Source of the DNA: a virus
Strand: one strand, 5' to 3'
DNA length: 48,131 nt
IMG/VR virus record: IMGVR_UViG_3300042389_000787
Location: 1-48,131 of that record
In this document: piece after piece, positions 128 through 7,674 of the stretch
Numbering within the stretch: the first letter of the stretch is position 1
How the letters are laid out: each line of letters opens with the position of its first letter
Position numbers and translations under genes: made by a program
Notes under the pieces: generated by a model
Databases searched by the model: none
What the model was told of the DNA's origin: nothing
What the model saw: only the letters and a program-made list of their open reading frames with translations

Positions 128-1130
128 TCGTGGCCCTGTGTGCCATGTTCGCCGCCCGCGCTTCATCCGCCTGCCGCTGGGCATCCGCCGCCGCCTCGAT
201 CCGGTGGCGTTCAGCTTCCACGGCGGCGGCACGATCGCGTTCGGCCTTTTGTTCAGCAGCTACCCGATCGCGTTCGGCCTTGGCTTCGGCTTCCTTGGCG
301 CGCTCATCGGCCTCGATCTTCTCCCGTTCCGCGCGGAGCAACCGCTCGGCCGCATCCCGCTCCCGCTTGGCCGCCGCATCCCGCTCAGCCTGGGCGCGAC
401 GTTCCGCCGCTGCGGCTTCCTCTGCCGCCTTGGCCTCTGCATCTCGTGTCGCCTTCTCAGCCGCCTCAGCCGCAATCCTGGCCTCGCGGTCGATGCGCTC
501 CTGCTCCTGCCGCTCCCGCTCGCGCCGGACCTCAGCTTCGCGGAGGCGTGCCAGTTCGGCGGCTTCGGCCTCCCGCTTGATGGCGGCGGCATGGGCGCGG
601 TGCATGGTGTCGACCGCACCGGCAATGGCTGCCTTGGCGCGCGCGGCAAACTCCTGCCAGTTGCGGGCAAGGTGTTCGTGGTGCGAGGTTGCGTCGATGT
701 GGGCGGCGATCTGGTCGGCGGTCCAATCGGCGGGGACGATCGCCCATGCTTCGATTTGGGCTATCGCGTCTTCATGTGCCTTGAGGCGCGCCCGATAGGC
801 TTCCAATGGGGCATCCAGCGACGCAATCAACTCGTCCATCTTCTGATCGACGATTTTGACTTCGGACCGGACGCCGTTGATGATTGCCTGATGATCTTCC
901 GTCAGGGTCTTCGCGAGGCGGATCAAGTCCTGGCGGGCGATGCCAACCTTCCGTTTCTTGGAGCCGATCTCTTTCCGCCCCTTTTCCGTCGACGCGTCGG
1001 CCTTAAAGCCCCGCAGTTCTTCGGCCAGACCACCAAGGATATCGTCCTTGTCGGCGGCCAGGATCGTCGGCAGTGCAGTCGCCGGGATGACCGTCAGCGC
1101 GGTCTTGTCGGGCTGGGTCATGTCGTTCAC
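1..1130 (-). CDS. Coiled-coil protein of recombination module (crosses the join)
   Basis: On the circle this is a gene of about 380 codons: it starts at GTG 1130 (GGAGG seven bases upstream; an ATG at 1121 is the alternative), runs to base 1 and continues from 48004 to its TGA at 47992-47994. The N-terminal ~175 residues form a soluble domain with a stretch rich in 'STEKGRKEIGSKKRKV'-type charge. Residues ~185-330 are an almost uninterrupted Ala/Glu/Arg/Lys coiled coil. Proteins of this build are commonly found beside phage exonuclease and annealing genes, and the next gene downstream here is the exonuclease. The exact role is unknown; scaffold or partner of the recombination proteins is inference. 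Confidence 0.8.
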   Translation of the reverse strand, partial: MNDMTQPDKTALTVIPATALPTILAADKDDILGGLAEELRGFKADASTEKGRKEIGSKKRKVGIARQDLIRLAKTLTEDHQAIINGVRSEVKIVDQKMDELIASLDAPLEAYRARLKAHEDAIAQIEAWAIVPADWTADQIAAHIDATSHHEHLARNWQEFAARAKAAIAGAVDTMHRAHAAAIKREAEAAELARLREAEVRRERERQEQERIDREARIAAEAAEKATRDAEAKAAEEAAAAERRAQAERDAAAKRERDAAERLLRAEREKIEADERAKEAEAKAERDRVAAEQKAERDRAAAVEAERHRIEAAADAQRQADEARAANMAHRATINRAAPAAIQAVITAHGAGTIIAEEAARAIVTAIAKGEVPHV

Positions 1131-2563: not shown

Positions 2564-2841
2564 ACCCGGGCCTCCCGAGCCAGACGGAACCGTTCGGCCG
2601 CAGCCTCGCGCTGTTCGTCGCTGATTTCCCGCTTCTCCCGGAACGGATCGGAACCCATGCGGAATGGCCAGAGAGGGCAGTGACCGGACGCGCACATCAG
2701 GACCTCGTTGCGCGATCCGCACATGCACGTCTCGACGCAGTATGCGCGGATGGCATCGCCCCGGCTGATGCGCGCGAACCCCTTTGCGGCCATGTCCTCG
2801 GGGGACATGTCGCGCGGGTCCATGGGGATGTCCGCGATCAC
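2560..2841 (-). CDS. Cys-rich small phage protein (CPLWPFRMG type), 93 aa
   Basis: GTG start overlapping the upstream TGA (GTGA). Residues 34-62 hold five cysteines in the pattern C-x3-C-x1-C ... C-x4-C followed by PLWPFRMG. Small proteins with a Cys cluster followed by CPLWPFR-G recur in phages and prophages of Proteobacteria, and the pattern suggests a bound metal. Their function is not known to me. A helical tail follows the Cys domain. Confidence 0.8.
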   Translation of the reverse strand: MIADIPMDPRDMSPEDMAAKGFARISRGDAIRAYCVETCMCGSRNEVLMCASGHCPLWPFRMGSDPFREKREISDEQREAAAERFRLAREARV

Positions 2842-3170
2842 AGGTCGCCTCCCATCGCCATATCCGTTGCGACCGCAGTCGCCCGGACCCGATACGCCGG
2901 CAGGTCAATCCCGTCGCGGATGTCGGTCAGCATTCCAAGCAGATCGTCCATGCCGTAGCCGGGCGCCGGAAAGGTCGTCTCGAACTCGGTTGCGCCGATG
3001 TCGTTCAGGAACGCGGTGAGCTTGGCTTTGAGTGTCGCGGCGCGGTCCACGTCGCGGGCCACGGCGGCGTCGGCGCGGTCGGCGGCGGCGTCGGTGGCAT
3101 CATCGCCGTAGCGGCGGGCGAACAGGGTGGGGGAGAAGCCATCGGGGTAGGGCATGTCGGCGGTTCCCAT
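2838..3170 (-). CDS. First gene of leftward early operon, 110 aa
   Basis: First gene downstream of the predicted leftward promoter at 3188-3216. ATG at 3170 gives a leader of only about 11 nt without a clear Shine-Dalgarno sequence; a second ATG at 3155 is possible. The protein is Asp/Ala-rich and helical in the first half (about 20-55). No family recognised. Confidence 0.65.
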   Translation of the reverse strand: MGTADMPYPDGFSPTLFARRYGDDATDAAADRADAAVARDVDRAATLKAKLTAFLNDIGATEFETTFPAPGYGMDDLLGMLTDIRDGIDLPAYRVRATAVATDMAMGGDL

Positions 3171-3187
3171 CGGTTTCGATGGGGGGA

Positions 3188-3216
3188 ACCTTAGTGCCGT
3201 TAAGGTGACTAGGCAA
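3188..3216 (-). promoter_or_regulatory. Leftward early promoter (PL-like)
   Basis: On the minus strand, TTGCCT (3216-3211) and TAAGGT (3193-3188) are separated by exactly 17 bp. The rightward promoter has the same design. The first inverted-repeat operator (3189-3205) covers most of the spacer and the -10 box, so a repressor bound there would block RNA polymerase. Predicted from sequence only. Confidence 0.6.
3189..3205. promoter_or_regulatory. Operator OL1, 17-bp inverted repeat
   Basis: CCTTAGTGCCGTTAAGG. Outer five bases on each side are perfectly complementary. The same half-sites occur at 3683-3699 and, degenerate, at 3223-3239. Overlaps the -10 box of the leftward promoter. Most likely bound by the CI-like and/or Cro-like protein. 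Confidence 0.65.
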
Positions 3217-3222
3217 GCGAAA

Positions 3223-3239
3223 TATTAGTCGCGCTAAGC
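3223..3239. promoter_or_regulatory. Operator OL2, degenerate 17-bp inverted repeat
   Basis: TATTAGTCGCGCTAAGC. Keeps the TTAG...CTAA core of the other two sites and lies just upstream of the leftward -35 box. It sits between the stop of the repressor gene and OL1, and may serve cooperative binding. Confidence 0.5.
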
Positions 3240-3246
3240 CGGTCCG

Positions 3247-3624
3247 TCATTTTTTTCCGGTTCGGCTCGCCATGCCCTGAACCGCCGCCAACGCAAACCC
3301 CTGCTGTTCGAGAGGTATTTTTCGGAACTCGCGGAGCATCTCAGCTTCGGCCGTGGTCTGCGCCCGGAATAATTCGGCCTCGTCACCACCCGTCATCAGC
3401 CATTCCACTGATGTTTCAAATGCCTCGGCAACCTGTTGCAATTGCTGCGGTCTCGGCATAGCACGACCTGTTTCATATTGCGTAACGGCATTCTCCGTTA
3501 CGCCTATATGACGGGCAAGTTGCCCTTGTGTCCAACCAAAAGCCTCGCGCAACTGGCGAATGCGTCCGCCAACCTGCACGGCCCGTTCGGTCACTCTGGA
3601 TGGTTTTTTGTCGGTCCCGGCCAT
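3247..3624 (-). CDS. CI-like repressor, XRE-family HTH
   Basis: The 125-residue protein (start MAGTDKK; an in-frame ATG at 3678 would add 18 residues but lies only four bases from the operator) has a classical lambda-type helix-turn-helix at about residues 17-72, with GRIRQLREAFGWTQGQLARHIGVTENAVTQYETG. A short helical C-terminal part follows. There is no S24 peptidase domain, so LexA-like self-cleavage is not expected. Divergent from the Cro-like gene, with operators on both sides. It probably keeps both early promoters silent during lysogeny; binding is inferred. Confidence 0.88.
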   Translation of the reverse strand: MAGTDKKPSRVTERAVQVGGRIRQLREAFGWTQGQLARHIGVTENAVTQYETGRAMPRPQQLQQVAEAFETSVEWLMTGGDEAELFRAQTTAEAEMLREFRKIPLEQQGFALAAVQGMASRTGKK

Positions 3625-3671
3625 GGCCAAACAATCCTGGGGATGCACGGCTATGACCACCTTAATTTGGG

Positions 3672-3700
3672 TTGCCATCCCGCCTTAGCGTTGCTAAGGT
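3672..3700 (+). promoter_or_regulatory. Rightward early promoter (PR-like)
   Basis: TTGCCA (3672-3677), a 17-bp spacer and TAAGGT (3695-3700), the same layout as the leftward promoter. The operator at 3683-3699 covers the spacer end and the -10 box. A start site about seven bases after the -10 box falls on the ATG of the Cro-like gene, so its message would be leaderless. Confidence 0.6.
3683..3699. promoter_or_regulatory. Operator OR, 17-bp inverted repeat
   Basis: CCTTAGCGTTGCTAAGG has perfect 7-bp arms around GTT. It is the best of the three sites and lies on the rightward promoter between the repressor and Cro-like genes. Confidence 0.7.
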
Positions 3701-3706
3701 CGGTTC

Positions 3707-3913
3707 ATGGTTGAACGAACGGAACCCCTTGCCTCGCTCCTGTCCCGCCGGAATGCGGTCCGCGACTTTGCGGAGGCGTGCGGCATTTCGACGGCGGCTG
3801 TCAGCCAGTGGCGACAGGTGCCGGTCAAACATGCGGAGACGATAGCGGCCCTCACGGGACTGTCCGTGGCCGATCTGCGCCCCACCCAATCCGATGAACA
3901 AGAGGCCGCCTGA
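3707..3913 (+). CDS. Cro/YdaS-like transcriptional regulator, 68 aa
   Basis: Small HTH protein: LLSRRNAVRDFAEACGISTAAVSQW (about 11-35) matches the first helices of YdaS/Cro-type repressors, followed by 'VPVKHAETIAALTGLSVADLRP'. First gene of the rightward early operon; its ATG coincides with the predicted transcription start. TGA overlaps the next ATG (TGATG). By position it should act as Cro against the CI-like gene. Its HTH resembles the C-terminal domain of the next protein. Confidence 0.82.
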   Translation: MVERTEPLASLLSRRNAVRDFAEACGISTAAVSQWRQVPVKHAETIAALTGLSVADLRPTQSDEQEAA

Positions 3914-4395
3914 TGCCAGTCTACATCATCCGTGCGGGAGAGGCCGGGCCGGTCAAGATCGGTCACGCAGCCGATCCCCAGCAGCGCCTCGGTGATTTGC
4001 AGGTTGCCCATTGGGAACGCCTCACGATCATTCGTCTGTTTGTCGGCGGGATGGCTGATGAGCGGGTCCTTCACGTCAGGTTCTCCGCGCATGTGATCCG
4101 GGGCGAATGGTTCAACTTTACACCCGAGATGATGGGTGACCTTGGCCTTGAGGAAATCATTCGGCCGCCGGTAGCCAGCAAGTATCCGCCCGCTCTCAAG
4201 CGGGTTCTGGAAACAGTCGGAGGTCCGCTAAAGCTTGCCCGCGCCCTCGGGATCGGCGCATCGGCCGTAACGCAATGGACGCGCATCCCTCCGCGCCACT
4301 TGCCGCGCGTCGAGCAGATCACCGGGATTGCCGGGCGGGAACTGCGCCCGGACCTGTGGGAGCCGCCCGCCGCCAGCCAGGACGCCGCGGCATGA
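3913..4395 (+). CDS. GIY-YIG-like (T5orf172/Mug113) domain fused to Cro/YdaS-like HTH
   Basis: Residues 1-70 fit the T5orf172/Mug113 branch of the GIY-YIG fold: VYII (3-6) for the GIY strand, VKIG (14-17) for YIG, Arg25 in QQRL, and the GEWF motif (64-67) near the end. Residues ~90-145 form a second YdaS/Cro-like HTH (LARALGIGASAVTQW, then ELRPDLW) like that of the preceding gene. Whether the nuclease-like part cleaves DNA is unknown; T5orf172 domains often occur with DNA-binding domains. A role in reading or cutting DNA at Cro-like sites is inference. Confidence 0.78.
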   Translation: MPVYIIRAGEAGPVKIGHAADPQQRLGDLQVAHWERLTIIRLFVGGMADERVLHVRFSAHVIRGEWFNFTPEMMGDLGLEEIIRPPVASKYPPALKRVLETVGGPLKLARALGIGASAVTQWTRIPPRHLPRVEQITGIAGRELRPDLWEPPAASQDAAA

Positions 4396-4892: not shown

Positions 4893-5086
4893 TGCGGTCA
4901 CGGCTCCTTCGTCGCGTCCCCCATAGCCGGGATGTCGGTTGCAAGGTAATTTTCCAGGCTTCGGCGCTGGACGTTCGTTGTAAGCAGGCTCGGGACCCGG
5001 CTACGGCCGGCGCGGGCGGTTCCGTTCTCCGGGACGCGCGCCGGTCGATCTTATCCCCGTGCGCGCGGGGGGTTATCCGTGCGTGA
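4892..5086 (+). CDS. Hypothetical protein, 64 aa
   Basis: ATG overlaps the previous TGA (TGATG; a GTG one codon earlier is also possible). Basic, with four cysteines and no recognised domain. The 3' part lies over the structured leader of the methyltransferase gene, which may be the real function of this DNA. Confidence 0.3.
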   Translation: MRSRLLRRVPHSRDVGCKVIFQASALDVRCKQARDPATAGAGGSVLRDARRSILSPCARGVIRA

Positions 5087-5160
5087 CTTCCTCCCCGATC
5101 AACTGCGCCGGCTGGGTTCGCTCAGCCGGCGGCTTTTTCGGGGCTAAAAATCGGGGATAA
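5051..5160 (+). promoter_or_regulatory. Possible regulatory leader RNA of the helicase-methyltransferase gene
   Basis: The ribosome binding site region ATCGGGGATAA (5150-5160) is complementary to two upstream segments: TTATCCCCG at 5051-5059 (nine bases) and CCCCGAT at 5093-5099 (seven bases). A terminator hairpin lies between them and the gene. The two pairings are mutually exclusive and could hide the Shine-Dalgarno sequence. Prediction only. Confidence 0.4.
5106..5138 (+). terminator. Rho-independent terminator upstream of methyltransferase gene
   Basis: GCCGGCTG (5107-5114) pairs with CAGCCGGC (5123-5130) around an 8-nt loop, followed by GGC and five T. It stands 29 bases before the next ATG, so it may end the small-gene transcript or work as an attenuator. 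Confidence 0.7.
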
Positions 5161-5166
5161 AAAACG

Positions 5167-7674
5167 ATGTCAAACACACTCGACCATCAAGCCTATCTGG
5201 ATTTCCTACAGTCGAAGTTTCGCTTTTCCACTGACAGCGGCATCATCGTTGATCGTTCCGACGTGAACGTGATGATGAAACCGCACCAAGTCGATATCGT
5301 CCAGTGGGCATGTCGGAAGGGCCGCGCCGCGATATTCGCCGCGTTCGGGCTGGGCAAGTCCATGATGCAACTCGAATGCGTCCGGCTGATCCTCCGCGCG
5401 GAAGGCGGGCGCGCGCTGATCGTCCTGCCGCTGGGTGTCCGGCAAGAGTTTCGCCGTGATGCGGAAAAGCTCGGGCTGACCGTTACGTTCGTGCGGCGGT
5501 CGGATGAGGTAACCGGCGACGGTATATACCTCACGAACTACGAGAGCGTTCGCGACGGCAAGCTGGACCCAAACCTGTTCACCGTCGCGTCCCTCGACGA
5601 AGCGAGCGTTTTGCGGTCCTACGGTTCGCTCACCTATCAATCCTTCCTGACGCTGTTTGCGTCGGTCCGGTATCGGTTCGTGGCCACCGCCACGCCATCC
5701 CCCAACCGATACAAGGAACTGATCCACTACGCCGGCTTTCTCGGCGTGATGGACACCGGGCAGGCCCTGACGCGCTTTTTCCAACGGGACAGCACGAAGG
5801 CGAACAACCTCACGATCTACCCGCACATGGAGCGCGAGTTCTACCTATGGCTCCATTCCTGGGCCGCGTTTGTGCAGCGCCCGTCCGACCTGGGGCACGA
5901 TGACGCCGGCTACGACATGCCGGAAATGGTCATCAACGTGCATGAGGTCCGCGCGCTGGATATCTCAGGCGGCCAGGATCGCGACGGGCAAAACATCATG
6001 TTCAAGGATGCGGCGCTTGGGTTGAAGGAGGCCGCCGCCGAAAAGCGGGAAAGCATCGGTCCGCGCATCGACAAGGCGTTGGAAATCATCAACGCCGCGC
6101 CGGACGATCACTTCATCATCTGGCACCACCTGGAAGCCGAACGGCACGCCATCAAAAAGGCGATCCCCGAGGCGGCTGAAATCTACGGCAGCCTCGATCT
6201 CGACGAACGCGAGCGCCGCACGCTGGCCTTTGCCGACGGGGAAATTCGCATCGTTGCCAGCAAGCCCGAAGTCTCCGGTTCCGGCACGAACTGGCAGCGC
6301 CATTGCCACCGGGCGATCTTCCTCGGGATCAACTATCAGTTCAACGACGTGATCCAGGCCGTCCACCGCATCCGCCGGTATCTGCAAGACAAGCCGGTGA
6401 TCATCGACTTCATCGTGGCGGAAACCGAGCGCGAAGTGTGGCGCACGCTGCAAGCGAAATGGCAGGAACACGAGACGCTCACGGAACAGATGTCCACGCT
6501 CATCCGCGAGCATGGCCTTTCAACCCTCGGCCTGGAGGCTGAATTGACCCGCACCATTGGCGTAACGCGATCCGAAAAAAAGTCCGACCTGTATCATGTG
6601 GCGCACAACGATACGGTCATGGAATGCGATCTGATGGCCGAGAACTCGGTGGACCAGATTATCACGTCCATTCCGTTCGGGAACCACTACGAATACAGCG
6701 CCTCATACAACGACTTTGGCCACAATGACGACAATAAGCGGTTCTTCGCGCAGATGGACTTTTTGACGCCGAACCTCCTCCGCGTCCTACGACCCGGCCG
6801 GGTGGCGTGCATCCATGTCAAGGATCGCATCCGATTTGGCAACGTGACCGGCGATGGCTTCCCGACTTGCGACCCGTTCCATTCCGATTGCATCCAGCAC
6901 TACATCAAGCATGGCCTGCGCTACATGGGCATGATCACGATCGTCACCGACGTTGTTCGCGAGAACAACCAGACATACCGCCTCGGCTGGTCCGAGAATG
7001 CCAAAGATGGGACCAAGATGGGCGTTGGGTCGCCTGAGTATGTCTTGCTGTTCCGCAAACTCCCGACCGATACCAGCCGGGGCTATGCCGATGTCCCGGT
7101 GGCGAAGTCCAAGGAGGATTACACGCGGGCGCGGTGGCAGGTGGATGCCCATGGTTTCTGGCGATCCGGCGGCAACCGGCTGCTGACGGCTGAGGAGTTG
7201 GCCGGATACGGGCCTGACAAGCTGGCAAAGATGTTCCCCGAATGGACGCTACAGCAGGTCTATGACTTCGCGGATCATGTGGCCATTGGTGACGGTCTGG
7301 CCAGCACCGGGCGCCTCCCCGCGACCTTCATGGCCATCGCGCCCGGATCGCACCATCCCGACGTGTGGACCGACGTAAACCGGATGCGAACCCTGAATGG
7401 CGATCAGGCGAACCGGAATTTGCAGATGCACGTTTGCCCGCTGCAATTCGACATCGTTGACCGCCTCATCGAGCGTTACAGCGCCAAGGGCGAAACGGTC
7501 TTCGATCCGTTCGGCGGCCTGTTCACGGTCCCGGTCCGCGCCATGCGCCTTGGCCGGAAGGGGCGCGCGGTCGAATTGAACGCGGAATACTACCGCGATG
7601 GGTGCCGGTATCTGGCCGAGACGGAGCGGGAAATGTCGGTGCCGGATCTGTTCGCGTTGGAGTCGGCGGCATGA
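5167..7674 (+). CDS. SNF2-like helicase fused to DNA methyltransferase
   Basis: 835 residues. N-terminal half: superfamily 2 ATPase with a P-loop-like AAFGLGKS (58-65), DEAS box (144-147), VATATP (172-177) and motif VI QAVHRIRR (397-404). C-terminal half: amino-methyltransferase of the beta order, with the catalytic motif first as TSIPF (500-504, in place of D/S-PP-Y) and the SAM site later as FDPFGG (779-784). Such fusions occur in several phages. Likely methylates adenine or cytosine N4 in phage DNA, perhaps against host restriction. The RBS GGGGAT precedes ATG by nine bases. Target sequence unknown. Confidence 0.88.
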   Translation: MSNTLDHQAYLDFLQSKFRFSTDSGIIVDRSDVNVMMKPHQVDIVQWACRKGRAAIFAAFGLGKSMMQLECVRLILRAEGGRALIVLPLGVRQEFRRDAEKLGLTVTFVRRSDEVTGDGIYLTNYESVRDGKLDPNLFTVASLDEASVLRSYGSLTYQSFLTLFASVRYRFVATATPSPNRYKELIHYAGFLGVMDTGQALTRFFQRDSTKANNLTIYPHMEREFYLWLHSWAAFVQRPSDLGHDDAGYDMPEMVINVHEVRALDISGGQDRDGQNIMFKDAALGLKEAAAEKRESIGPRIDKALEIINAAPDDHFIIWHHLEAERHAIKKAIPEAAEIYGSLDLDERERRTLAFADGEIRIVASKPEVSGSGTNWQRHCHRAIFLGINYQFNDVIQAVHRIRRYLQDKPVIIDFIVAETEREVWRTLQAKWQEHETLTEQMSTLIREHGLSTLGLEAELTRTIGVTRSEKKSDLYHVAHNDTVMECDLMAENSVDQIITSIPFGNHYEYSASYNDFGHNDDNKRFFAQMDFLTPNLLRVLRPGRVACIHVKDRIRFGNVTGDGFPTCDPFHSDCIQHYIKHGLRYMGMITIVTDVVRENNQTYRLGWSENAKDGTKMGVGSPEYVLLFRKLPTDTSRGYADVPVAKSKEDYTRARWQVDAHGFWRSGGNRLLTAEELAGYGPDKLAKMFPEWTLQQVYDFADHVAIGDGLASTGRLPATFMAIAPGSHHPDVWTDVNRMRTLNGDQANRNLQMHVCPLQFDIVDRLIERYSAKGETVFDPFGGLFTVPVRAMRLGRKGRAVELNAEYYRDGCRYLAETEREMSVPDLFALESAA

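Follow-up and report, generated by a model that had tools for sequence, protein, structure and literature searches.

The described system closest to the gene analysed here is Odn (Gp88) of vibriophage ICP1, an origin-directed nuclease in which a satellite's RepA domain aims a T5orf172 nuclease (PMC8263062). Odn carries its RepA_N domain at the N terminus, is encoded by a lytic phage and acts on the satellite's replication origin. T5orf172 homing endonucleases of the ICP1 type carry zinc-finger domains (CapR, DUF723, DUF4397) or RepA_N, and no Cro or YdaS domain is listed in the part of that account available to us (PMC10448857). The T4 intron endonuclease I-TevI is able to cut or repress, and the GIY-YIG nuclease SNIPE destroys phage DNA and is dead as the E414A mutant (PMC13190303). 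Chimeras of T5orf172 with zinc-finger or RepA_N domains (PMC8263062, PMC10448857) and anti-phage GIY-YIG nucleases (PMC13190303) are already known. On the DNA-binding side, YdaS has been argued to be a homologue of Cro (PMC5917428), the toxin label of its Pfam entry being a historical name.

We examined a window of 48,131 nucleotides of viral DNA (the whole stretch analysed) in which a gene of a temperate phage joins a GIY-YIG domain to a Cro-type helix-turn-helix (HTH). Like Odn, the encoded protein combines a phage-borne T5orf172 nuclease domain with a DNA-binding domain that resembles another element's sequence-specific regulator. Unlike Odn, it has a C-terminal Cro HTH, its predicted target is phage operators, and the gene lies in the immunity region of a temperate phage. 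As with the ICP1-type homing endonucleases and CapR, the nuclease is modular, with exchangeable DNA-binding domains and a cassette at an exchange boundary (PMC10448857). I-TevI differs in being intron-borne and in having a long linker with a zinc finger and no Cro domain, and SNIPE in being a membrane-bound host defence with DUF4041 and no HTH-given sequence specificity (PMC13190303). The HTH half is of the same family as YdaS, P22 Cro and Xfaso1 Cro, whose known members are free-standing, whereas here the domain sits behind a nuclease. Our literature search, which covered open-licence papers, found no published GIY-YIG/Cro fusion. A first-pass annotation was aware of no described function for such a pair; this holds for the GIY-YIG/Cro pairing, but Odn (RepA_N plus T5orf172) is a close functional precedent. 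Overall, the interpretation given in that annotation is partly supported.

Domains and catalytic residues of the fused gene

The switch region and the fused gene contain the following features:

3190-3204, plus strand: own operator, left copy 1, CTTAGTGCCGTTAAG, one mismatch to CTTAG(N5)CTAAG
3224-3238, plus strand: own operator, left copy 2, ATTAGTCGCGCTAAG, one mismatch to CTTAG(N5)CTAAG
3247-3678, minus strand: cI-type repressor, divergent from cro (Pfam HTH_3, E = 2e-15)
3684-3698, plus strand: own operator between cI and cro, CTTAGCGTTGCTAAG, exact palindrome
3707-3913, plus strand: free-standing Cro of the YdaS/P22_Cro type, 68 amino acids (Pfam)
3913-4395, plus strand: GIY-YIG/Cro fusion, 160 amino acids (Pfam), with three orthologous contigs (L097-L099)
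3913-4152, plus strand: T5orf172/MUG113 GIY-YIG domain, predicted nuclease activity (Pfam)
3985-3987, 4060-4062, 4072-4074 and 4105-4107, plus strand: codons of R25, E50, H54 and E65 in the GIY-YIG domain
4189-4365, plus strand: C-terminal YdaS/Cro HTH, residues 93-151 (Pfam; Foldseek to 3bd1, TM 0.80)
4261-4278, plus strand: recognition helix core SAVTQW, residues 117-122, predicted reader of TGCAG(N5)CTGCA

The first-pass annotation had placed a Cro-like gene followed by a GIY-YIG/Cro-like fusion at 3707-4395, and both its coordinates and the Pfam domains proved right. The product of the first gene matches P22_Cro (E = 3e-6) and YdaS (E = 2e-4), each slightly under the curated cut-off. Its stop codon and the start codon of the fusion overlap as TGATG, which makes translational coupling of the two genes likely. 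A search of the window for operators returned CTTAG(N5)CTAAG in three copies.

Two families of the GIY-YIG clan match the N-terminal half of the fusion, namely MUG113 (residues 14-72, E = 7.9e-7, 30.0 bits against a cut-off of 22.3) and T5orf172 (residues 3-72, E = 4e-4, 21.2 bits against a cut-off of 20). The C-terminal half is matched above curated cut-offs by YdaS_toxin (residues 95-151, E = 1.2e-11) and P22_Cro (residues 96-138, E = 2.8e-7), in agreement with the earlier description of a T5orf172/Mug113-type domain joined to a YdaS/Cro-like HTH. That this HTH resembles the preceding Cro was likewise borne out, the two being 34% identical across 44 amino acids. The fusion itself is not a free-standing Cro; it sits behind the actual one, and its helix shares three of six core residues with that neighbour.

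Structure prediction had been suggested for both halves. AlphaFold2 models the full protein as two well-formed domains (pLDDT 86.8, pTM 0.54) whose relative orientation is uncertain. In Foldseek searches of the PDB, the HTH half matches Xfaso1 Cro (3bd1, TM 0.80) and P22 Cro, whereas the GIY half, modelled alone with a pLDDT of 95.6 (E3-8, E14-18, H22-32, E37-43, H47-56), reaches a TM of 0.47 to I-TevI, which is not significant, nor is its match to BH0048. When the GIY profile was compared with PDB sequences, I-TevI (1mk0) was the sole match and a weak one (E = 1.3), while hhalign relates the domain to that of Odn with an E value of 5.5e-5. We therefore assign the N-terminal half to the GIY-YIG superfamily from its Pfam matches, the alignment to Odn and the weak I-TevI profile match, with the resemblance of the model to solved GIY-YIG folds being suggestive.

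In an alignment of 33 GIY domains, Y4, G17, R25, E50, E65 and W66 are invariant, and K15, I16, H54, G64 and F67 are almost so. The register of the GIY..YIG core agrees with both Odn and I-TevI. Glu180 of Odn is required for cleavage (PMC8263062), and the segment that carries it, DTE(180)QRIHEEL, aligns with ADE(50)RVLHVRF of the fusion, so that E180 of Odn corresponds to E50. Arg25 and Glu65 had been named as the residues to mutate. The former is conserved as expected, but E65 is rejected as the probable catalytic glutamate on this alignment, since it is not the residue that aligns with E180 and instead is the invariant glutamate of GEWF. The N terminus is thus GIY-YIG-like as judged from sequence, and its arginine (Arg25) and a glutamate (Glu50) are both invariant.

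Related loci in other phages

Scans of the collections revealed about 29 loci in which a small HTH gene is directly followed by a GIY gene with a short N terminus, the upstream HTH genes having been called partly by eye and being backed by Pfam in only some cases. A single-protein scan of the collection missed the family, and the relatives were recovered with closer seeds. At 19 of these loci the GIY protein scored positive for an HTH-like tail, with tails of the YdaS, XRE, ‘GPRGWND’ and ribbon-helix-helix-like (L114) classes. The gene order of the window, a YdaS Cro and then a GIY-YdaS protein, recurs in a Rhizobiales metagenome-assembled genome (L177). This was the one full fusion found in a scan of genome contigs, and a class sample of 385 genomes yielded no further fusion besides that genome. 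Phage L019 has the operator and Cro helix of the window phage, yet its GIY protein has no HTH tail, indicating that the same immunity group can carry differing tails.

Among the 19 loci, the two HTHs encoded side by side resemble each other more closely than permuted pairs do (75.8 versus 49.0 ± 6.3, p = 2e-4), suggesting the adjacent regulator as a possible source of some fusions. At none of the eight loci compared do nuclease and neighbouring regulator have identical helices, with L177 coming close (HSSVLAW in the nuclease, HSAVLRW in Cro). Duplication of the adjacent Cro may have given rise to the tails of L177, L110 and L020. For the window and its orthologue L099 we reject a plain duplicate, because among the HTHs compared the tail is nearest to the Cro of another phage.

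Several further arrangements were observed in these scans. Phage L020, in addition to its pair at 2669-3525, has a second Cro-like gene (351-569) and then a different GIY-YIG gene (about 443-943). The ‘GPRGWND’ HTH class (RVRxxxY), which is apparently uncurated, occurs both as a free-standing early gene and as the tail of a nearby GIY nuclease in L110 (1485-1997 with 2001-2567) and L108 (214-657 with 676-1263). In L114, a GIY-YIG domain with a ribbon-helix-helix-like tail (1831-2289) immediately follows a small HTH gene. Locus L189 was considered as a broken fusion and rejected, since its YdaS-type HTH lies on another ORF (1651-2496), at the N terminus of a longer protein. Similar matches occur on Bradyrhizobium plasmids (H89-H91), annotated there as TorD-family chaperones, which suggests that the mobility of the YdaS-type HTH as a domain extends beyond phages.

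The DNA-reading helix and its predicted operator

In the 19-locus comparison, the tail of the fusion scores highest against a free-standing Cro from phage L206 (270, versus 112 for the Cro next door), and the helix residues SAVTQWTR are identical in the tail and the L206 protein. A scan of IMG/VR with this helix recovered additional phages with a free-standing Cro of the SAVTQW kind. In all ten distinct loci with such a Cro, TGCAG(N5)CTGCA lies within 120 bp upstream of cro, where about 1e-4 occurrences per locus would be expected from base composition, and one or two extra copies are present farther off. The window and L019 provide a second case in which the helix foretells the operator: their Cros have the identical helix STAAVSQW and their switches the identical operator CTTAG(N5)CTAAG, in three copies each. 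A reverse scan found TGCAG operators with Cros of other helices too, so the notion that TGCAG is unique to SAVTQW was rejected: the helix predicts the operator, but the operator does not predict the helix. By this rule, the tail of the fusion is predicted to bind TGCAG(N5)CTGCA, the operator of another immunity group.

Exact TGCAG(N5)CTGCA sites are absent from the window, its own switch included, and from the contig G388 that carries L099. With one mismatch allowed, the window has one site versus 1.5 expected, giving no sign of active avoidance. The TGCAG phages that were found have no backbone or clear flanking homology in common with the window; that they share a host with the window phage is a presumption. 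A second, less certain case of a borrowed Cro domain is L243, where the HTH of the nuclease is similar to a free-standing Cro in L211; the latter phage has TCACC operators and L243 is without them. For the helix of the L206 nuclease, no matching free-standing Cro was found.

Elsewhere, TGCAG(N5)CTGCA is paired with the Cro-like helices RRTLFYW and VRTLASW (L316, L322, L324, L309, L320 and L325), an apparent convergence on one operator. The same palindrome forms arrays with 11-bp spacing in L315 (12470-12528) and L321 (8141-8198) and with 39-bp spacing in L318 (3303-3551), and a YdaS-type Cro was not detected in the same stretches.

Uncoupling from the adjacent switch and proposed action

The fusion of L099, on the 48.5-kb contig G388, is 85% identical to that of the window. 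At this locus, two stretches account for all the DNA homology between the two, the cassette (3902-4357) and a non-coding patch (4923-5160). The cassette DNA is 81% identical, its homology stops at the edges of the ORF and its flanks are unrelated. The neighbouring HTH gene, cI and operators of L099 (GCGGGA(N4)TCCCGC) bear no relation to those of the window, while elsewhere the two phages are related. Comparison of codons 1-147, among which those of the recognition helix show no amino-acid change, gives a dN/dS of 0.087 at a dS of 0.95; taken separately, the GIY half has 0.12 and the HTH half 0.044. Such values in orthologues of about 85% identity indicate strong purifying selection and a fusion that did not arise by chance.

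These data bear on the idea, raised in the first-pass annotation, that the protein regulates its own switch. Under this reading, the HTH would bind operators of the phage itself or its early promoters, with a GIY-YIG domain that is inactive or regulatory. Its place beside Cro in the early operon fits, as do the tendency of the HTH class to match that of its neighbour (the permutation result above) and the ability of I-TevI to act as an autorepressor (PMC10448857). However, the catalytic residues are invariant, the predicted TGCAG site is missing from the window's switch, and the DNA-reading half was kept while the adjacent switch was replaced, which argues against own operators as the target. 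We consider self-regulation quite improbable.

Instead we propose, giving the reading about an even chance, that ORF 3913-4395 encodes a chimeric nuclease of the Odn kind whose targets are the TGCAG operators of another immunity group. That the HTH half resembles the switch protein of different phages suggests rivals' control sites as the target. The earlier guess that the protein cuts operator-like DNA of rivals is accordingly the better supported of the two, in that the HTH matches another group's Cro with mapped operators; the cutting itself is a prediction from the domain. The fusion protein would be made early in infection together with Cro, and its C-terminal HTH, probably as a dimer, would bind TGCAG(N5)CTGCA, a palindrome that appears to serve as switch operator in other temperate phages but not in the window phage, which is presumably thereby protected from its own nuclease. 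The N-terminal domain may then nick or cut DNA at or next to the operator, and this could destroy or disable a TGCAG-group phage, whether resident as a prophage or co-infecting, or open the target to recombination.

The cassette could also be a free-standing homing endonuclease that cuts the TGCAG switch, so that repair copies in the attacker's switch and nuclease gene. Intronless homing is the mode of the T4 Seg and Mob enzymes. Cassette borders at the ORF edges between unrelated flanks, together with a location adjoining the very switch that homing would spread, are what such an enzyme would leave, and T5orf172 genes are known as homing nucleases at exchange boundaries (PMC10448857). However, the sampled TGCAG phages yielded no homologue that lacks the cassette but has the target site and shares flanks, and their lack of clear flanking homology to the window favours a weapon over a homing enzyme. 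Moreover, the strong purifying selection contrasts with the decay frequent in homing genes, and the position after cro is conserved over very divergent GIY proteins, suggesting a resident role. We regard homing as unlikely, if worth keeping in view.

Cleavage or repression of TGCAG-like chromosomal sites, aiding takeover or the induction of resident elements, would make the host itself the target. The one host genome scanned has 11 exact TGCAG sites in 3.9 Mb, but most are GC-rich, chance-like matches, and a temperate phage whose nuclease cuts its own host would conflict with lysogeny unless the enzyme were silenced. We give this reading little credence.

More broadly, and with somewhat less confidence than for the single gene, alphaproteobacterial temperate phages may keep a swappable operator-directed nuclease as the second gene of the early operon, with which they cut each other's switches; its parts would be a T5orf172 domain and the Cro DNA-reading domain of a competing immunity group. 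If so, immunity regions would be nuclease targets besides passive specificity tags, with the nuclease riding beside the attacker's own switch, and the switch itself would become the target of an arms race. There would then be an extra selective reason for operator diversity and the exchange of immunity modules in temperate phages, and such genes would be a natural source of compact nucleases whose predicted target sites are short.

The surroundings of the cassette hold three other features. The non-coding patch at 4923-5160, which lies between differing flanks in the two phages, is 77% identical to its counterpart in L099. It terminates in a GC-rich hairpin and T-run and has a sub-threshold Rfam match to SorX (27.8 bits versus a gathering threshold of 46.6), so that it is a possible small RNA. 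In L099, a pentapeptide-repeat protein with ANLAxANLAD repeats is encoded immediately past cI (202-876, minus strand). In the window, 5167-7674 encodes an 835-amino-acid protein with an SNF2-type helicase region and an N6/N4 DNA methylase (phrog_16, N6_N4_Mtase).
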